Part shown: positions 1 through 61,037 of the stretch, one piece after another
How positions within the stretch are numbered: position 1 is the first letter of the stretch
How the letters are laid out: every line of letters starts with the position of its first letter
NCBI RefSeq assembly: GCF_025602895.1
Contig: NW_026516207.1
Coordinates: 806,001 to 870,000, forward strand
Length of the DNA stretch: 64,000 bases
From: Polychytrium aggregatum
Lineage: Eukaryota; Chytridiomycota; Chytridiomycetes; Polychytriales
Direction of reading: 5' to 3'
The notes under the pieces: model-generated
The model's input: only the letters and a program-made list of their open reading frames with translations
The model's database searches: none
Told to the model about the DNA's origin: nothing
Position numbers and translations under genes: made by a program

Positions 1-3000
1 GACTGCTCCGTTATCGCCGGCATTTGCCCACTCACCTCCGAACTCGACTGCTGCTCAACCCACACCTCCGCCGGTTAGACACAACCGTGACCTTTTACAA
101 CATCGACACCCTCGAGATGATATCCGTCAATGTGATTGCTCCGATCAAGCCCATACTGTCGATCTGTGTCGACAAGTTTATTCAAAGCCCGATGCACTTC
201 ACTGTCGCCAAACGCCGTAGCGCACACTGCCTTCGTCTCGGGGACTCGCTGATGACAGAAAAGGTATCGCTGCGAAGCAGAATCCAGGGCCATGGCAGAG
301 CAGGCCGAGGGAAGCTTGCTGCTGGGCGATGTAACATGTGCGCATATGCTCCCATGCGACCTTGCAGTTGTCGCCGATGGAGAGACAGAGCTGAGGCCCC
401 CCCACTCAGCATGCAGAGCTCCAGTTATTGGCAGACAACGGCAGCGAAAGCACTTTGCTAGTGCACTTCCGTGTGGCACTGACAAGTGTGCCATATGCTC
501 CGTCCCCAACTGCTTTCATAACATCAGGATATCCCCATGTCGGATGGAGCAATTGCGATGGCGCGATACAAAAACCACATATGCGCAGCCGATCAGTCGA
601 GCTACAAGATACTGAATGTCGAGACCAGCCAAGAGTTTCAGCTGTTTCCGTACGACCGGCAGCTCATGAGGCCCATGGTTGTTGCGATTCAGGAGGATGA
701 GTTCCTCCTGGTCATTGGCACACCTCAGCAAACAGGGCTAGGCATGTTCGTCACCGGAAACGGCGATGCCATTCGCGGTGAGTGTCTTGGGCAGTCTCTC
801 AGTTCCTTTGAGTATTTGACCATCGCGAATGCTCTCCTTCTCATTTACTAATCTGCTCGGCGTTCGGCTCGATCAGGAACACTGGAGTGGCCGGCGATGC
901 CGAAATCCGTTGGTAAGAGACTGGCCGTAACTGGTTGCTCCTCGGACGGTACTTTTGCCGAGCCAGCAGTTGCTCCCGGCAGTGTGGTGCGATCATAGTA
1001 TACTCTAACTGTGAGTCGCGGCAACCATCATAGCTTTCCAGTTCCCGTACGTAATTGCCCTCCTCAAGTCCAACGTGATCGAGATTCACAACATCTTCAA
1101 CCAACAGCGTGTGCAGCACATCATGTTCCCACGGAGCATGGAGCTGAAATCCCTGAGCGAGGCCACCTTCAATCTCGAAATCAGCAAAGGCGATCCCAAA
1201 GAAAGCTCGTCGATTCACGTTGTCGCGGCTGGAAAGGACACCATCATTGGACTCAAGATGATGTCGCTCGAGGGCCAGGTGCGAAACATCGAGCTGCTGT
1301 CCTCCCCCCCCTCACCGTCATGGAGTCACTCGTTTCACTACCGCCTGTTACGACTGTATCTGTGGGGAGACTCGACTGCATCAGAGATGAGCAGCGCGTC
1401 GGTAAATGCAACCTGTGCGATTTCGATTGACTAAGTCATGCATCGTGATTGCTGCTTCGTGGGTGTAGATATCCGAACTATTGATACAAAAACAAATCTC
1501 ACGGGCCGTTGCCCTCGGCGAGCAAGTCATCCAGTGGAACCGGCATGACGGATCGGACGCTAAGGTCAGCGCGAAACTGCTGAGACGTTCCCTCACAACC
1601 AAGCGGGACTCACATCATGGACGAACTTGGGATGGAGTTTGCTGCTGGAGTACTCATCCCAGTTTTGCTGTCTGCATTGCTGACCACAGAAACGAAAGCT
1701 TAAAAGCCTCTATGAACGGGGCGGGCTGGTGTACTTCAAAGACACTCTGTTTGACGACGCCATGACCCTGTTCCAGAAGGGAGACCTCGATCCGGCCTAT
1801 CTCATCAGCTTGTTTCCCGAGCTGCAGCCCAGCAAAGCTTACGAGCGGCAAACTTCAAGCGCATCCATCGATAGCGCAGGCGTTGAGCTGGAGGCGCTCT
1901 CATCAATCGAGGAGCTTGGTAGGCGTTCAGTAGTTTTTGGATGCAACCACTGTCGTGGTTTAGCAATCGCCTCCGCGACGCATTGGGGAGGGAACCATTG
2001 TTTTCCTGTGTTGTAAAGAGCTTCAGTCCTCTGCCGGAGTGAATCGTGCATAGCCGGGCTTTGTTGCGCTATATGCATCGCCCTGACGATCCCTGTCGCG
2101 CGGACAGTATCTTACAATCTACAGCACAGCTATCCTGATGCTGAGGAAGACGTCAAGGAGTCATATAGAGCGGTACTGCGAACGTCCGCCAAAGTAAGCA
2201 GATGTGGATGTGGATGTGGATGCATCCGACCTGGACTCATGCGAACACAGAGTTTGCCACATGTATATGTGGCTATAGCAAGCCGCCCCGCTGATGGACA
2301 CCACCTGATTGAGTGTCTTCTCGCTCTAGGAAATGCTGAAGAAGTATCTTGTACACTACCGCGAGCTGCACGGCGGACGAGAGGTGAGTGGCCACATTGT
2401 CCACGACCATTGGAGAAGTCCATGTGATCGACGCGGCGAGCCCCTGGTAACCAAACGCATCCCCCTTGGTCAGGATATCGATTCGTCGATCCTCAAGATC
2501 TACGCAGAGATGGATCGCGACGCCCTCTACGATTTCTTGAACGGCGAGAACGTTTGCGCTCTCGAAGAGTGCGAGCAGTTCCTACTGGAAAGAAAGGTAG
2601 TCATCAGTTGCCTGTGCGCTTCCGCCATCCCGACTTTGATTGTACAATCAACATTGATCGACGCTAACATCCTCGATAATGCCGCTCGGCGCCAATTCGA
2701 ACAATAGCTATTTTACGGAGTCGGCCTTCTCTTCAAATCCCGGCACATCCCGGCTCGGGCTCTGGAAACATGGAAAAAGTGTGTCCGCTTACGATCGCAC
2801 AGTCAGATTTGTTGGATATGAAACATTTCCTGGAGCGATGGCATTCTAACACATGTCCCGCTCATACAAATCTAGGATCTACACAAAGGAGTTTATTGAT
2901 CCGGACGCCAGAGGCGGCTTGGTCGAAATAATGGACTACATCCTCGAGCTCGACGACAAGGAGCTGGCGTGGGAGTACACACAATGGATTCTGAAACAAG

Positions 3001-5036
3001 ACTCGGCCCTGGGTGTTCAGGTAACGTTCACCCCGACAACTCTGGCTCCTGCCATGGCCTTGGCTTCATCCAGCTCCACGAATCAGACCGACTGTACAGC
3101 CAGTTACCCTTAACCCTCGGTCTCTCGACTGTGCCTGCGCTGGCAAGTGCTGGTTTGCAACCCTTGTGGCAAACGGTTAACGTTGTGAAACGCCCACAGA
3201 TATTCACGAGCAAGAAGGCCAAGGTCGCCCAGTTTGAGCCCAGCCAAGTACTTGACCATCTGCGTCCATTCGGTGTCGATGCTGTGCGGGCCTATCTGGA
3301 ACACGCAATCAATATCGAGCGGCGACAGGTGCGCATCGATTTCGACAGTCGATTTGCAGCCGCTGGAGCAGTGCGTGCAGACCAGCCCATCGCGTCTGAT
3401 GCAGTCACCAGACATTCAATTGTAAGTGTGTGGCCATGCCAACTTGATCCGGCCGGCAGCTGACCACATGAGTTTGGGTTGCTTCCCTCCGCATGGCCCC
3501 GATTCGACAGACACCCGCAATCCACACCGAACTGGCAGAGATCTATCTGGACAACACTCTCCTCTATCTTACCGCGGATGCAATTGAGCAGCATAGTATG
3601 TGCCAACGAAGGGCGAGTTGCCCACAAGATTCCCTCGCTCAGTGATCGGTGCTGCTTTGGGGCCATGTTCGCTTTCCAGTGACTGTGAAGCGATGTGGCT
3701 TGGCTCGCTCGTCCAGTCATCAGACGATAACGGGGCACTAATCCAGATTTGCTCTTTAGGAAGTCGATACTGGACGCTCTCGCCGCGCGGGTCATTCCTG
3801 AGCTTCCTGGCCAGCCAAAACGACTCTCTCGCGCGTGCTCGCCACAAGCTGATCTTGTTTCTGACTCAGTCCTCAAGCTACGACGCTCAGCATATCAAGG
3901 ATCGTGTTGAAAAGTCATGCATCGGGCTCTTTGCCGAGCGTGCGGTGTTGCACTCGAAGGTGAGTGGCCAGGGTCGCGCGTGTGTTGTTAAGTCAAGCGG
4001 ATCAGAACATCCCGTACCGGTCTCAGCGGCTCACAGAGTACCTTTTGTGGTTCTCAGCTCGGAGATCACTCGCACGTTCTGTCCCTCCTGGCCCTGGATC
4101 TCCAAGACTTTCACAGCGCCGAGCAATACTGCTCCAGCCAAACGCTCGGAGAACACCCGCAACCGACCCTGTCCGAAACTGAGGGCCGATCCAGTATCGC
4201 CATCACACATGAACTTAACATGACCGATGCGGATCGGATGCGAAGGAAGCTGACCATGATGCTGATCGAGCTGTATCTGCATTCGGAACAGCCGGACTAC
4301 TTTTCAAAGGAAATCCTCCGACTAGTCAACACGCACTGGCCCAGTTTGGACAGCGTCCAGGTGGGAAGCGCTGTTCGAGTGGCTGCATTCGACTGCGATA
4401 CGTAAGAGTGACAGCGTTACTTGCTTTGTCTCGACCTGTGCTGACGAGCCCGCTTGATGGCCACAGATCCTCAGTGTTCTGCCGGGCCATTGGTCACTCG
4501 CTGCGGTGAGCGGGTTTTTGGAGGCGTCGATTCGGAAGAGCCTCAACGACTGTCGTGAGGGACAAGTGATCAAGTCCATCAGCAAGATTGAGAACTACCA
4601 GGTAAAGGGACATGGAGTGGAGAGCGCTTGCCCCGACAGTGTCGACACGTTTGTTCGATGCCTCCGTCACGGAGGACTTCTCGTCTCACACTTCACTTTG
4701 CATCATCCGTTCTGTTCCATTCCCACACCATCCATGTCGCTTCAACTTACCCGCCGCCCCTGCTGCCTTGGTCATGATTTTTCACGGCTCCAGGTGAATC
4801 AGGAGTGGTCCAACTTTCAAAGTGATTCGCATGCAGTTCACATCACCTCCGACCGGCCATGTACCGAGTGCACCCGCCCCTTCAACGAGCCACACTGCAT
4901 ATACTATCCCCCAGTCGACACCGGATCCCAAAGCCCAAACAAGCCGCTCCTGGATGTCGTTCACCTGCAGTGCCGGTCTCGGAAAGAGAGCTCGCCTCCG
5001 TGGAACGAGTGGAAAGGCAAATCTAGAGATGCATAG
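1..5036 (+). CDS. VPS3: Vps3/TGFBRAP1-like CORVET tethering subunit (5' partial)
   Basis: The 3' part of a multi-exon gene whose start lies before the window. CORVET tethers early endosomes through Rab5, and this subunit carries a beta-propeller CNH domain followed by an alpha-solenoid. Visible pieces in order are the end of a CNH domain (VTFYNIDTLEM near 90, AKRRS near 210, EFLLVIGTPQQTGLGMF near 700, FPYVIALL then IEIHNIFNQQRVQ near 1050), the helical stretch LVYFKDTLFDDAMTLFQKGDLD (about 1730-1800), ILKIYAEMDRDALYDFLNGEN (near 2490), ELAWEYTQWILKQD (near 2960), and a C-terminal zinc-binding tail with CTEC near 4870 and a later H..C pair. The order and wording fit TGFBRAP1/Vps3 better than Vps39, for example GLGMF in the propeller and the W-ILK then GVQ step. 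Exons are separated by short GT-AG introns. The last exon runs to a TAG at 5036. Vps39/Vam6 is the main alternative. It converges on the transporter gene that follows. Confidence 0.85.
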
Positions 5037-10679: not shown

Positions 10680-11724
10680 CAGCAGAGGGAGCGATGTCGT
10701 CTTTCTTCCGCACGAGCGATACTTGCTCCAATATAGTGTTGGGTGAAACGAAAAGGTTCGCCCCAAGCTGTCTGCACGCGATGGATAGCTAGCCCCCGCA
10801 CATCTGCAAAAAGCCCACTCGCCGCTGCTCCCTCCAACCGCTGAGGCATCGAATCCCTTCCACCGCGTAGCCCCGTTTGCATCAACTCATGCTGCCTGTC
10901 GTCTCATCTGTACATCATACGCCGACAACTCGCCCCGCCGCTCACTTTGCTTCGTGTATCGCTCTGCAGCGAGTGCATCCCTGTGTCAGCCAACGCAAAA
11001 CGATGGATTAGGACGGCAGTCGCCACGATGGGAGGAGGTTTGTCGCTAAGCGCACGGTGGTCGGCTCATCCAAAAATTGCTATCGTCAACATGAGTTCCG
11101 AAGTCTAACATATCATAAAACACTCATCGCCGCCTTGGCAAAAGTTATCGGTCGCGAAAGGCTCTCTTGCTTGATGCTTACCTCGCGTGGTCAGGAGGAT
11201 CGTACACATCCATCGCATGCGACATCTTGGGCCAAGCACACGGAGGCAGCGCCGTCCGATTCGAAACAGCTCGCCAAATGCGGCAGTGGCTGGTGTGCGT
11301 ATCAGAGAAACTCCCACGCTCTCCCGAGCCCAAACGATCGGCAACAGCGTCGGCGCGCCTCGAGCAGAGAAATATGTCTTCCTTGGGTGATGTTCCAAAA
11401 CGACGCTATTATCGAGTAATGAAACGACCTTTGAGAAAGACTTTCGTTTGTCTTGGCATGATCTTTTGACGTCCGGCGGCACCCGGGCGCCCCAGACGTA
11501 TCTGCTGGCCCTCGCCGCAAGACGCTTCGAAGCAGCCTTTGCGTCAGAGAACCAAAGGAAGATCGCGCCGCTCGACCAAGATATACCCGCTGGGAACAGC
11601 GTGGCGCAGTGATCAGCACGCCACACACGTGTGTGATCGGCGGCCGATTGGCTGCGTCGCGGGCCAATCGCGTGCGCGAGCCGGTGGCCATTGTGTGTGT
11701 GCTGGTGCAAGCTGTGTGGTTGCG
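10680..11724. other. Intergenic region, no gene recognised
   Basis: About 1 kb after FPGS. Open frames on both strands here are short or overlap each other, and show no family motif. It may contain more decayed element sequence upstream of the Fanzor relic, but I cannot identify coding motifs in it. Confidence 0.35.
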
Positions 11725-12036
11725 GGCGATCCAATAAAAAACGGGACACCCAGGTTTTTGACCATTCATCGAATATTTTGTTACCCAATGTTATCGCGCG
11801 CTGGCCATGACCATTCGCCAGACGGTGTGGAATCGCGACGTCAACGCGGCGCGCAACATGATCACAGTATGCAGGTCGATTGTGGAGATCGGAGAGCGAC
11901 CGGCGGTCTTCACTCGGAGGCTGCCAAAGTGATTTGATTGTATTACTTATGGCTTTGCTTGACGCAAGCACCTCACATACTACATGTTCATGGAAACGGC
12001 TATATTGTCCCGTTTTTTTCTGAATAAAGTGTACAC
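11725..12036 (+). mobile_element. Fanzor (eukaryotic TnpB) C-terminal relic, copy 1
   Basis: A short decayed piece of a Fanzor-type RNA-guided nuclease gene. The frame ending at the TGA at 11930 reads TVWNRDVNAARNM followed by ERPAVFTRRLPK. RDxNAARN is the last RuvC motif of TnpB/Fanzor proteins, and a G-x-RP-x-F tail is usual in eukaryotic copies. Upstream, GDPIKNGT is in a different frame, so at least one frameshift separates the pieces. The segment is repeated with many differences, in the opposite orientation, at 60446-60745. A motif AAAAACGGGACA at about 11736 recurs inverted as TGTCCCGTTTTT at 12006-12017. Most of the nuclease (N-terminus, first RuvC motifs) is absent. The family assignment rests on motif recall, not a search. 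Confidence 0.65.
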
Positions 12037-12232
12037 TCCGCCCGCGATATCGAGATGATCGGGTCGAACGAGCCACTTGGCCTCCAGGCACCATGAATGC
12101 ACTAGGTCATGGAGGACGAATGAATGGATGTGTATTCGGGGCCCAGAGAAGCAACTGCCCTGGCTCAAACAGGGCGCTTCGCTTCGTTTTGGACAAGCCT
12201 TGTATTCGTGACAGCAGCCCGTTCCCACAGTA

Positions 12233-37949: not shown

Positions 37950-38336
37950 CGTTTCCAAAATGAAATGTGACAGGGTTCCATTACGAGCGTCTGCTGGCTC
38001 CGATGAGCAAGCCGTGCGACTGCTTCCCGTCCTGGTTGGCAATATCTTTGTGGGGTGCATTCACTCGGCCCTCTGGACAGTTCCATGGTGTATCGATATC
38101 GAGATACTCGGCCATCTTGAATTGCCTGGCACTGTGAGCACCCCTGGGATGTGTTGAACTCGTTCACCGAGCACACCGGAGTCTCCGTGGACTGGATGCA
38201 TGTCCCTTCCTTTGCTTCCAGGGGCATTCCCAAAGGCAATCACAATGTCGGTCTCCCATGGCGCCTGGTCAATGGCTCGCTGGCACATCTCGTGGACAGT
38301 GCGACCAAAATCCAGGATGTCCTGTTATTTACTGGC
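37950..38336 (-). pseudogene. Fanzor (eukaryotic TnpB) relic with zinc-ribbon motif
   Basis: Minus-strand fragments of a Fanzor-type nuclease lie directly after the CorA stop codon. From about 38290 one frame reads DIVIAFGNAPGSKGRDMHP, typical of the strand before the second RuvC motif. A different frame then reads CSVNEFNTSQGCSQCQ (about 38180-38133), the combination of the RuvC-II Glu, the TSxxCSxC segment and the first Cys pair of the zinc ribbon. Further on, a third frame gives WNCPEGRVNAPH and SHGLL before an internal stop. The frame changes and the missing N- and C-terminal motifs mark it as a broken copy. It may belong to a different Fanzor lineage from the relics at 11.7 and 60.5 kb, since no shared stretch is obvious. 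Family assignment is by motif recall. Confidence 0.6.
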
Positions 38337-44960: not shown

Positions 44961-45735
44961 TGACTTGGTCAGGGCCTCCGACGTTTTCTCTCGGCCGTCG
45001 TCTGTTGGATCCGGTGCCGGTGCTCGATATGGGCCCTGGCTTGCAACATACATTGCTTCGGCTCTGACATGGAGCTATTTTGTCGCCAGCCTGAGGTCGA
45101 GAACCGAATCGTTGATATTGCTCATGGAAAGGAGCATTAGCTCAGCGCTCGCTCAAGATTTCGGCATCGCCTTTTGGAGCGTCAGTATAGGGCCACGTGC
45201 CAAATAACCACCGACTGTCGCTTCCTCGATTGCTGACTGTGTATCGCGAGACTGTGCTTCCCAAATCCACAACAGGCGGTGCCTGAAACGAAGGAACGCA
45301 TATGCACTGTCCGGTTTCATTTCTTTGGTTCAGTCAATACTGGATGAATACATGGGCACCGCACATTCAGAACACAGAGGCTATCGGCTCCAAAGCACGA
45401 TGGCTGTTTCGATTGGTCGGCGCTGCAGTACTCTTCTAACTGCTTGGAAACTGGGCTTGTGCTGGATTACAGGCGATCCAATAAAAAACGGGACATCCTT
45501 CTCGACCACGATCCGACCGACTTCTCTCGCTTGCAAAAGCATCAGACTGCATCGGTTTGTGGGTCGAGTGCATCCAGCGACGATGTCAATCACACTGCCG
45601 ATGCAAGAGTGCCGCACGACAGCCCCAATCACAACTACCGCCAGGATTAGGATGCTGAACAAGCGACAGGGCCCCGAGCCACTGAGTTCTGCACTCTTTC
45701 TTCTTCTCGGTTGTTGCCTCTGGAGAAACGCAAAG
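44961..45735. other. Spacer between the tandem nucleotidase genes
   Basis: Promoter region of copy B and possible 3' end of copy A. It contains one short sequence shared with the Fanzor relics (see 45475). No gene recognised. Confidence 0.4.
45475..45500 (+). repeat. Fragment shared with Fanzor relic copy 1
   Basis: The sequence GGCGATCCAATAAAAAACGG followed by GACA is identical to 11726-11746 and related to 60724-60745 on the other strand. It lies about 240 bp upstream of nucleotidase copy B. Only this end of the element is recognisable here. Confidence 0.7.
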
Positions 45736-48721
45736 ATGGGATGCGGTGCCAGTCGAACCAGTCCTGCCGACTCTGAGTTTCTGGACCAGCCCACGATCGT
45801 TCTGCCTCTGGTTCACTTCAACGATGTGGTGAGTCATTGAGCTTGGCCAAGGGAGATTGGCGGCTCTGTCCGTCGACCAAATGCGTCCGGGCCGTATGCA
45901 CTCGTTTGCGGATGTTATGTCTTTCACGCTCACGTATTGGCCGTAAAAGTACCATCTCGAGCCCTTCCACAACGAGCCAGTCGGTGGATTCGCGCGATTT
46001 GCCTGCACCGTCAAAACATGGCTTGAGGAGCAGCGAACTCAACACAACCGCAGGCAGCATCTCATCACATTTGGCGGGGTAGGAGCGTGGTCGATACGCA
46101 TGTGCTGGATCGTAGTTGATTCTTGCCAAGATATTGTGGAAGCTGTTCTTGTTCTCACCATATCGCATCTGCGTGAAACCTCGGTATCGGATGCATCGCT
46201 GACGGATTCCTTGGTCGCCGCTCGCCCCACCGCTGCGGTCTCAGGACGTATTTAACCCGAGCGTCGAGTCGAGCGTGACCAAAGGCCGACACATGCTCCC
46301 GGCGATGAACCATCTGGGCATCAACGCAACCTGCTTTGGGAATCATGGTACTCCTGCCGCGTTTCGCACGAGTGCAGAAACCATCAAGAGCGCACGCACG
46401 AGCGCCACTTGCAGGCTTCTGGCCGTCAGTGGATCACCACAGCGATGGCATCCTATCGCTGAGAAGTGCGATCAATGACAAAGATCGAGACACCGTGCAT
46501 CTGACGCATATCGATACCCTGCAGATTTCGATTTTGGCGTCGAGACCCTCATCAATCTCAAGAACTCGACCAACTTCCCGTGGATCATGTCCAATGTGAC
46601 CGACCGGCAGATGCAGCAGCTCCTGGCAAACGGCCAAGAGTACGTCGTGCTGGAGCGGTATGGCCTCCGCATTGGCTTCATTGGTCTGGTTGAGCCTGAC
46701 TGGCTCGAGACGATATCGGGACTGCCTCCTGTGGACTATATGGATTTTGTCGAGGTCGGCCGAGGACTCTCTCGCAAGCTCAAGAAACCCAGGGGCGAAG
46801 AGGGCGGTGAAGGCGTCGATATCATCATCGCCCTGACGCATATGCGAGTACCAAACGACATGCGTCTCGCGAGAGAGGTGCCCGAGATTGACTTGATCCT
46901 TGGAGGTAATTGCCGCAACAGCACACCAGGGCTGTGCTGTCCCATCCAGGGCCGTTGCCACGGAGCTGCTCCAAGGCCACATCGGGGAGAATTCAGAGCA
47001 ATTCTGTGGCTTGGCGTGCCGTATTTACACCGCATTTCTCTCCAAGGACACGATCATGATTTCTTCGCCGGTGGAGACAACGTCAGCCAACCTGAAAAGT
47101 TTGTTCACGAGGGCAATGTGCGCGTAATCAAGTCCAGCTGCGACTTTCGAGATGTAACCCTCAACGAGTTGACTATCCAGCGACGAACGCCAGAGAAGCC
47201 TGCGTACATCTCCCACGTCAAGGGTAATATGGGCTACGCTTGCTTGATTCGCGAGAGGAATGTCGCTCGCTGGCCGGCTGCGTTTGACTTTGGCTGATCG
47301 GCGCCAGACAACTGGCGACGGAGCGCTGGCCCGCCAGCACCGGATCATGGGCTCACCCGAACCAACATCCCTGGCAGTTCTCCATAAGCAAGTCACCAAG
47401 GATCTGCCGGAAGACCCAAAAGCCCTCGAGATCGTCAAGCAAAGCCTGTCAGGTCTTGGCCAGAAGCTCGATCGGGTGGTCGGGCGGACCAAGACAGTGC
47501 TGGATGCCCGCGGATCGGTTTGCCGGACGAGAGAGTCAAACATCGGCAACTTTGTGTCGGATCTGATCAGGTAGGGCAAGGTTCTGTCAGCTGTCCTCTA
47601 ATCCGCTGACACTGAGGCTCGTGATCGCCGCAGGTTTACCTACGACACCGATATCGCCATGATTGTTGGCGGAACCATCCGCTCCGACTCAACATACGGC
47701 CCGGGCGACATCACCATCCGCAACATCATCGACATCTTTCCATTTGACGATCCGTGTGTTGTTCTGGGGTAAGCCACGCATATCGTGTTGGGTGCGCTTT
47801 TGCGTGGACCATCGACTGTGTTGGGTTCTGTAATGGAGACATCTCAATCTCGCTCGTCACCACTGCTTGTCAATAGGATGAAAGGCAGCGATGTCTTGGA
47901 GGCCTTGGAGAACGGCGTCTCCGCAGTGCCAAAGACGGAAGGTCGCTTCCCGCAGATTTCCGGGCTCAAGATTGAGTATGACTCAGTGAGTTCCGGTTGT
48001 CTCTTTTGGATTTGTGGAGACAGGCGACGGCGACTTGCACAGCCTTGACCGTCCACTACCACCTCCGATGCTCATGCATGCCATTCGTCCAGTCAAAGCC
48101 GCCACACCATCGCATCACCAACGTCGATGTTGTCAAGGCCGGCCCCGAGTCGTCCTATCTTGAGAAACTCGATCTTGAGAAAGAGTATACATTCGCAACT
48201 CGTTCGTACGTCCCGAGTGCCACACATTACAGCGTCTGCTCCCGAGGCAATATCAGTCAGAAAGGAACACCCGCATGCCGCTCACATGCTTCTTCTGATT
48301 GCACGGGAATCGCAGATACCTGGCCGATGGACGCGACGGCTTTGACTGCCTGCGAAAGGCTCGGGTGATTGTCGACAAGGAGCAAGGGCTTCTGATCTCA
48401 ACGATCATTCGTCGCTTCTTCATTGGCATTCGAGTCGTCAACCGATTCCGGGTATTTTGCGGCGAAAACAAGGTCCTCGCCCGAGATGCCTTTACCAAAT
48501 GGCGACGGCTGGTGAAGGACAGCTTGAAGAGTAAAGACGGAATCCACCACCACTTGTCGACCCACAGCCTGCACAATCTGCACAAGAAAAAGTCGACCGC
48601 CGCAAAAGAAGCCGAGGGGGTCCTGAGCGAGGATGAGGACGACGAACTTCCGGAGATTGAGGTTGGCGATTGTTGCTCTGGTTCCGGTCACGGACCGACA
48701 GTAGCATCGTCATTTCACTAA
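45736..48721 (+). CDS. 5'-nucleotidase family metallophosphatase, copy B (MGCGAS N-terminus)
   Basis: Tandem paralogue of the gene at 42095, same strand and same fold. Exons: 45736-45828, 45950-46078, 46245-46347, 46525-46905, 47047-47223, 47378-47570, 47634-47768, 47877-47985, 48093-48205 and 48316-48721, 613 codons with the stop. Exons 2-9 have the same lengths as in copy A (129, 103, 381, 177, 193, 135, 109 and 113 nt). Catalytic motifs are intact: HFNDVYH, GGDVFNPS, GNHDFDFG, LTHM, GGHDHDF, CRTRESNIGN, VGGTIRSDSTYGPG and DIFPFDDPC. The N-terminus differs: MGCGASRTSPADSE replaces the short MSDDI of copy A. Gly2 with Cys3 and Ser6 is the form of an N-myristoylation plus palmitoylation signal, so this copy may be membrane-tethered while copy A is soluble. 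The intron equivalent to the GC-AG one in copy A is GT-AG here. Confidence 0.93.
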
Positions 48722-60445: not shown

Positions 60446-60745
60446 ACTGTACACTTTACACATGAGCAACGGGACACTGCCCATTCCATGAACATGTAGT
60501 ATGTGATGAGCTTGCGTCAAGCAGAGCCATAGGAAATAGAACAGATCACTTTGGCAGCCTCCGAGTGAAGACCACCGGTCGCTCTCCGGTCTCCACAATT
60601 GACATGCACACTGGACTCGGAGTGCCAGTGGCGAATGGTGCTCTTGGACACACTGGCGAATGGTCATGGTCAGCGCGCGATGTATTGGGTAACAAACCAT
60701 TTGATCAAAAACCAATAACCAAAGTGTCCCGTTTCTTCCAGGAAC
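60446..60745 (-). mobile_element. Fanzor C-terminal relic, copy 2 (inverted relative to copy 1)
   Basis: On the minus strand this aligns along most of its length with 11725-12036. Shared blocks include CTTGACGCAAGC, CACATACTACATGTTCATGG, GGAGAGCGACCGG, CTTCACTCGGAGGCTGCCAA and ATGACCATTCGCCAG. The RDVNAARN region of copy 1 has been replaced here by unrelated sequence with a local CTGGCGAATGG duplication, and the tail frame is disrupted, so this is a more decayed copy. AACGGGACAC at 60468 and GTGTCCCGTTT at 60724 form a short inverted pair like that of copy 1. Similarity extends about 20 bp beyond the left motif (GTACACTTTA), so the inverted pair may not be the true element ends. Confidence 0.65.
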
Positions 60746-61037
60746 GCCTGTGACTAGCGACACCCGGCTTCCATCGTCTCAGCGAATTAATGGTTCATGG
60801 AGCATGTCAGTTATGCATGTATGACGGTGAATTGCAAATCGATGAAAGCGAGCAAGCATCGGAAATGCCGTCTGGAGTCGGAGCCGGTGGATATGCCTCA
60901 CAGGCCGCCGCCTCTCCGTCCAGCACCCCCGGCTCAAACCCCAGAGCGACTTTCCCAGGGCCCAGCGCGCTTTCTCGCTTGCATCTGCTTGCATCTGCTT
61001 GGGCCGGCTCCACGACGCTGCCGACGATTCCGCTCCA

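Follow-up and report, generated by a model that had tools for sequence, protein, structure and literature searches.

The window, a 64,000-bp stretch of the Polychytrium aggregatum genome (contig NW_026516207.1, positions 806,001 to 870,000), carries a 309-bp segment that is a complete non-autonomous transposon, a MITE-like ghost joining about the first 100 and about the last 216 bp of its parent (Table 1). The matches to the two parental ends overlap by 7 bases, which is compatible with a deletion at a short microhomology, and the internal junction puts an ATG from the transposase side in frame with the C-terminal tail of a Fanzor nuclease. The forward frame at 11807-11932 reads MTIRQTVWNRDVNAARNMITVCRSIVEIGERPAVFTRRLPK and then a stop, and ends in this tail. 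Copies of the 309-bp class are bordered by TA-CAGGCAATCC... on the left and by ...GAATAAAGTG-TA on the right, with imperfect inverted repeats. The arms of the window copy (11729-11748 and 12006-12025) are 85% identical, and its left TA has decayed to TG. The segment is short, repeat-bounded, multi-copy and devoid of a transposase, as a MITE should be, and its parent is presumably autonomous since the transposase frame there is open.

Table 1. Coordinates of the transposon features in the window (el, position in the full-length reference element).
Feature	Position	Strand	Basis or remark
Left flank TTG: conserved T and decayed TA target duplication	11720..11722	+	most other copies read TTA
309-bp non-autonomous (ghost) element without TA flanks	11723..12031	+	30-copy alignment; breakpoints against full element
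Imperfect left terminal inverted repeat of about 26 bp	11723..11748	+	
Portion from left end of full element, into transposase 5' coding region	11725..11823	+	el 6-104, 97%
41-codon in-frame fusion ORF: ATG from transposase side and Fanzor C-terminus	11807..11932	+	open in 23/23 distinct copies
Portion from right end of full element: Fanzor C-terminal codons and 3' non-coding segment	11817..12033	+	el 3528-3743, 94.5%
Candidate guide-RNA (omegaRNA) scaffold	11930..12033	+	position and comparison with SpuFz1
Candidate stem-loop in 3' segment; outer-stem mismatch in window copy	11948..11971	+	partly read by eye
Right terminal inverted repeat	12006..12031	+	
Right TA target duplication	12032..12033	+	
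Predicted guide: flanking DNA right of TA	12034..12048	+	analogy with 14-15 nt SpuFz1 guide
Second, older ghost of the same family, 303 bp	60450..60752	-	right junction as in 280/380 classes

The Fanzor tail is 97% identical over 37 residues to a Fanzor1 of the same genome (tblastn E-value 2.9e-17), and the DNA of the element matches the right end of the transposon encoding that Fanzor1 at 94.5% over 217 bp (E-value 3.6e-93). These two matches place the derivation of the segment from Fanzor far above chance. Only the last 37 residues remain, with no full nuclease ORF bearing the zinc finger and the three catalytic residues. Because the zinc finger is absent, the segment by itself scored 13.8 bits against the PF07282 profile (E-value 0.069; cut-off 26.3 bits) and is thus undetectable by profile search on its own.

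The parent is a 3.74-kb Tc1/mariner-type transposon encoding a DDE_3 transposase and a Fanzor1. Our reference copy (locus L070, el 1-3743) is numbered from the T before the left TA through the right TA. In Pfam, its first ORF matches DDE_3 (PF13358, E-value 1.4e-23) and its second ORF matches PF07282, the Cas12f1-like zinc-ribbon domain (E-value 5.4e-10). The Tc1/mariner assignment follows from the terminal inverted repeats, the TA target duplication as read at filled sites and the DDE_3-type transposase. The Fanzor1 (L070 1912-4245) contains, in order, D(PG), NEFNTS, a C4 finger and RD, residues conserved in all three aligned proteins, two of which belong to a diverged family that we named C2. 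The published Fanzor1 motif, D-X(125,275)-[TS][TS]XX-C4 finger-X(5,50)-RD (PMC3627910), is present as D527, T706-S707, C710/C713/C736/C741 and R747-D748. A DPG signature and an alternative glutamate near the zinc finger have been named as Fanzor signatures (PMC10711439); the former is found as GIDPG at D527, and in our reading E703 within NEFNTS is a candidate for the latter. A search of the PDB with the single parent sequence gave no match at an E-value of 0.01, and a three-sequence profile placed SpuFz1 (8gkh) at 0.73, behind two LaTranC chains (0.05 and 0.07).

Among 14 loci fetched at long Fanzor matches, eight have Fanzor frames that run for 778-857 residues from stop to stop and end like the window peptide; three have C2 frames of 918-977 residues. 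Two further Fanzor families, with PF07282 and OrfB_IS605 matches, were encountered at L032 (1486-2916, minus strand, 477 aa) and L040 (406-1746, plus strand, 447 aa), the latter below the PF01385 cut-off. The L032 frame also shows a weak MerR helix-turn-helix match and, by eye, an apparent serine recombinase start, pointing perhaps to an IS607-type origin, to a fusion or to an intron that went unrecognised. The window itself holds a decayed Fanzor gene fragment at 38117-38303 (minus strand), which runs from the RuvC to the zinc-finger region, occupies more than one reading frame and matches the C2 family at a lower E-value than it does the ghost's parent.

The 309-bp form recurs throughout the assembly. 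At least 41 genome matches were obtained with 40 of 1137 first-look candidates scored: 40 matches at 94-100% over the whole or nearly the whole query, and one partial match at 84%. A 30-base probe spanning the internal junction and allowed up to three mismatches hit 51 places (both loci of the two-locus sites described below being counted), every one with zero or one mismatch, and its reversed control hit none. Thirty copies could be aligned from border to border, beyond which the flanks were unrelated save for pairs with common flanks; the terminal repeats and TA duplications bound the other copies as well. Probes for the full element, again with up to three mismatches, gave 433 places for the left end, 256 for the transposase catalytic segment, 254 for the Fanzor RuvC-I segment, 390 for the 3' segment and 312 for the right end; all controls gave zero, and the counts are approximate since the probes are unequally tolerant of variation. 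At least 150 PF07282 matches were found in the whole assembly, where 150 of 663 first-look candidates were scored and all 150 lay above the curated cut-off. The assembly carries a large Fanzor load.

Besides the 309-bp form, other internal deletions of the parent exist. Pairing of the first 100 exact ends listed for each side gave 54 pairs, two of 280 bp, three of 309 bp, three of 380-382 bp, four of 1111 bp and 42 of 3174-3787 bp; 46 left and 46 right ends stayed single, partly because the pairing was confined to these ends. As judged from the members read (L079, L078, L067 and L074), the 380 class joins el 1-210 to 3576-3743 (L079); the 280 class consists of el 1-100, about 20 bp that it has in common with the 380 class, and el 3576-3743 (L078); and the 1111 class joins the left portion up to el 666 to 3296-3743 (L067, L074). 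All four deletion classes examined keep at minimum the last 168 bp.

Traces of older and rearranged elements were also seen. Right-end remnants of related elements, 73-85% similar, lie at L018 1165-1300, L070 483-580 and L066 6631-6694; the L018 remnant matches just the last 137 bp of the element. The L070 element adjoins one such older remnant, so the invasions look layered. The left flank of the L018 ghost (about 1410-1499) also occurs at 100% beside a long element of a different contig (C13:306658-306747), and its right flank was not found at that locus, as if two elements had recombined. In the window, the 32 bp at 45467-45498 (plus strand) match the element's left end at 94%, and beyond them similarity stops; an inverted-repeat scan of 45300-46600 gave no partner end.

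We then considered what the retained right end might encode. The guide RNA of SpuFz1 comes from the region between the stop codon and the right repeat and runs 14-15 nt into the flank (PMC10432273). For other Fanzor1s, the terminal repeat and the target duplication are predicted parts of the RNA scaffold (PMC10711439). The window element keeps the region that would hold the omegaRNA segment in the coding copies, and by analogy its right end probably encodes a guide RNA. The predicted fold of the 3' segment comprises a terminal hairpin using the right repeat and an upstream stem-loop, and is slightly better than those of shuffled sequences (z -0.95, -1.39 and -1.52). RNAalifold reported a compensated change in 7 of 27 pairs, with an unfavourable net covariation term of +1.57. 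Read by eye, in a pairing register unlike that of RNAalifold, the outer stem of the 11948-11971 hairpin shows a single compensated change, most copies having G-C there and L019 A-U. Covariation support for an RNA from this segment is weak. The C2 family (L068, L069, L073) has a similar right terminal repeat and showed no match to the 3' segment, so that it afforded no covariation test, and the one Rfam match (E-value 0.97) is at chance level and outside the element. Among 23 distinct 309-bp copies, departures from the majority amount to 1.4% of sites in the left portion and, on the right, to 2.2% (Fanzor tail) and 2.0% (3' segment); at 2.1% for the whole right part, this side varies no less than the left.

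The second ghost in the window has diverged in its terminal repeats and is better kept in its Fanzor tail and 3' segment. Compared with a 380-bp copy, this core shows 14 mismatches in 126 positions against 41 in 175 for the remainder (p = 0.0065; p = 0.03 without the poorly aligned right terminal repeat). We set aside a stronger figure for the core (9/126 against 41/175, p = 1.4e-4) that mixed references, the 280-bp form for the core and the 380-bp form for the remainder. The contrast fits either mild constraint on the core or conversion of the interior.

Elements of different length occupy the same TA at near-identical loci. Joined flanks were searched for 28 of the 30 available sites, in sets of 20 and 8 (L070 and L074 were set aside, their flanks being part of other repeats), with 40 of 156 candidates scored for the first set and 23 of 23 for the second. 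Among the candidates scored, a second locus with both flanks was found for 15 sites and none for 13, and no empty site appeared at any of the 28; longer joined flanks compared with the fetched loci and the window likewise gave none. Seven of the 15 two-locus sites carry elements of different lengths and none is empty: 309 against about 3596 bp (L004), about 3726 bp (L005), about 3629 bp (L028), about 1110 bp (L026) and about 279 bp (L011), full length against about 1109 bp (L066), and 3611 against 3764 bp (L071). The other eight are of equal class (L001, L010, L012, L014, L020, L023, L025 and L065, the last with about 3625 and 3629 bp). By sequence comparison the paired loci look like alleles or recent duplicates: seven equal-class pairs of 3.3-kb loci are 98.9-99.9% identical, the unequal pairs share 90-bp flanks on both sides at 99-100%, and at L004 and L011 one 1.5-kb flank each occurs exactly twice, at 100% as rounded. 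Assembly error may also be the source of the length differences. Among the titles and abstract openings listed for the open-access Fanzor, TnpB and IscB literature, none mentions length switching at shared sites, which may have been reported elsewhere; the seven sites with different-length elements at the same TA, the lack of any empty one among the 15, and the private end marks described next are what is new here.

The ends of both elements could be read at five of the seven differing sites, and in three of them one or both ends match with private marks. At L011, the right end is identical to that of its 280-bp partner over 149 columns, closer than to any of 40 other copies, and the left ends are also identical, as are those of 2 of 39 others. 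Each member of this pair holds internal sequence absent from the other, so deletion alone explains neither from the other. At L066, the right end is identical to that of the 1111-bp partner, eight departures from the majority included, and none of 40 others comes as close; the left ends differ at five positions, where 37 of 39 others come closer. L004 and its long partner have in common a left border base unique among the copies, and their right ends differ at three positions, with 17 of 40 others closer. The L005 and L026 pairs were uninformative on end sharing. Same-class pairs have identical element ends in six of seven cases, T-run length aside. The exception is the window copy and its C385 partner, in which 7 of 14 substitutions in 3.3 kb fall inside 90 bp of the element (p = 1.2e-4, for substitutions falling in the element); four more cluster within 6 bp of the flank, so that clustering extends beyond the element. 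The end comparisons suggest that element interiors were replaced by copying from other family members, through gap repair with template switching, and either the transposase or the Fanzor may have made the breaks.

Taken as a whole, the explanation that we favour, with moderate confidence, assigns to the window segment, a MITE-like ghost derived from a two-gene Tc1/mariner-Fanzor1 transposon, a guide-RNA role and Fanzor-driven retention. The ghost keeps both parental ends without either gene, in the same form at dozens of loci. The parental transposase would move it in trans into TA sites, and its right end would act as a guide-RNA gene whose guide is the DNA immediately right of the element. 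The parent-encoded Fanzor, loaded with the ghost RNA, could then cut element-less copies of the site at a TTA motif followed by the guide sequence, and repair templated by a filled copy would restore an element. Template switching during such repair could place elements of different length at one site of near-identical loci. A stronger version, which we put forward as a rather unlikely extension, holds that Fanzor cutting, with guides from coding and ghost copies, keeps reopening and refilling sites, which makes long and short elements interchangeable at the same TA of near-identical loci. If true, the genome of a eukaryote would thereby bear the footprint of RNA-guided retention through gap repair. 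The absence of empty loci is also expected if the insertions predate the split of the two loci.

An appreciable, if lesser, chance must be given to an ordinary MITE, with no guide RNA, whose right end was kept by chance or for a subterminal need of the transposase and whose lengths vary because gaps left by excision are repaired abortively. The terminal repeats, the TA duplications and the number of copies suit any Tc1/mariner MITE, and the weak RNA-structure support and the right part of the young copies, no quieter than the left, sit well with it. Abortive gap repair following transposase excision is known from other DNA transposons and could have operated here. The better-kept right core of the second ghost speaks against it, though interior conversion could give the same pattern, as does the predicted use of the terminal repeat and target duplication as scaffold by known Fanzor1 guide RNAs (PMC10711439). 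Nor would a plain TA inserter be expected to show a base preference on the left side only, though its terminal repeats differ.

T precedes the left TA at 32 of 34 distinct left flanks against a background of 14% (253/1786 in the surrounding DNA; p = 3e-25), and the mirror bias is absent on the right, where A follows TA in 4 of 37 flanks (p = 0.68). In these counts repeats of the same flank were merged (42 to 35 on the left, 46 to 38 on the right), the left entry of L069 and the right entry of L053, from another family, were left out, and a few left ends with indels (L017, L063) were missed by the flank pattern. The supposed left end of L069 was dropped as the reverse complement of that locus's own right end. 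The Fz loci of S. punctatus carry CA as conserved bases on the outer side of the left repeat, in agreement with the CATA motif measured there (PMC10432273). By analogy with it, the one-sided T predicts a TTA target motif. The same T could instead reflect a target preference of a transposase complex with differing terminal repeats, a possibility that we rate on the unlikely side. The left and right repeats are indeed non-identical and all sites compared are filled; the SpuFz1 parallel, in which the measured motif is flank plus TA (PMC10432273), argues for the Fanzor. With no empty site found, the T before TA stays a candidate target base.

We consider it very improbable that the 309-bp class was kept to encode a regulatory peptide of 41 residues, with its start from the transposase side fused to the Fanzor tail. 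Such a role would agree with a frame open in 23 of 23 distinct copies and with 29 synonymous, 34 non-synonymous and no stop changes (expected 25%, 72% and 2%). However, only about 1.5 stops are expected from 63 changes, which makes zero unremarkable, and many changes are common to several copies and hence non-independent; the 280 and 380 classes and the second ghost of the window lack the fusion junction altogether. The substitution counts do not demand selection.

A decayed Fanzor gene left as a fragment by random decay, as the original prediction had it, accounts for the C-terminus and is hardly credible given the junction probe at 51 places (control zero), both element ends common to 30 aligned copies and first 100 bp derived from the transposase end. 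What it had recognised in the sequence was accurate: WNRDVNAARNM, then ERPAVF and a stop, are present within the tail that is 97% identical to the same-genome Fanzor1, and its coordinates, 11725-12036, lie within a few bases of the element (11723-12031). Derivation from a Fanzor gene therefore stands through the tail match. The segment as a gene remnant does not, since it is a whole transposon with terminal repeats, and the first 100 bp or so, from the transposase side of the parent, had been overlooked. Its expectation of Fanzor copies elsewhere in the genome was borne out by the eight long frames among the 14 loci, and L070 holds a full-length parent. The parent matches the PF07282 profile, and the window segment stays below the cut-off.

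The P. aggregatum genome bears on what Fanzors may do for the transposons that carry them. It contains the Fanzor catalytic segment at hundreds of places, possible guide-only copies by the dozen, a predicted TTA motif and two-locus sites switched in length. The idea of retention thereby becomes directly testable in this genome.

The window element belongs to kinds already described, namely Fanzor ghosts and Fanzor1-Mariner elements. The ghost Spu-1 elements of Spizellomyces punctatus comprise 134 reported loci without an ORF, whose right end is like the omegaRNA region (PMC10432273, Saito et al. 2023). Just like these, the elements described here have inverted repeats without a Fanzor ORF, resemble the omegaRNA region of coding copies at their right end, show conserved bases outside the left repeat (CA in Spu, T here) and are present in many copies. 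The Spu ghosts have a conserved region of about 550 nt and a single-ORF parent locus, whereas the short forms in P. aggregatum, of 280-382 or 1111 bp, arose by internal deletion from a parent with a transposase gene as well. Fanzor1-Mariner elements have been described from an oomycete, from a fungus and from viruses, and are represented by SPu-1, PGv-1 and PUl-1 (Bao and Jurka 2013, PMC3627910). Our parent resembles all three in combining a Fanzor1 with terminal repeats and TA duplications, and resembles PGv-1 and PUl-1 in also encoding a Mariner-like transposase. PGv-1 has a third gene, an endonuclease; our comparison of L070 covers its two long ORFs against Pfam. In P. aggregatum the Fanzor catalytic probe finds 254 places in one assembly. 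A functional parallel may be drawn with the TnpB of IS200/IS605, for which gene-drive activity has been reported (PMC11870625): there, as is proposed here, the guide is recorded from the insertion site, and the cutting of copies that lack the element works in its favour. The TnpB system was described on bacterial plasmids with a different transposase, while ours is a eukaryotic transposon with a DDE transposase, whose nuclease activity we infer.
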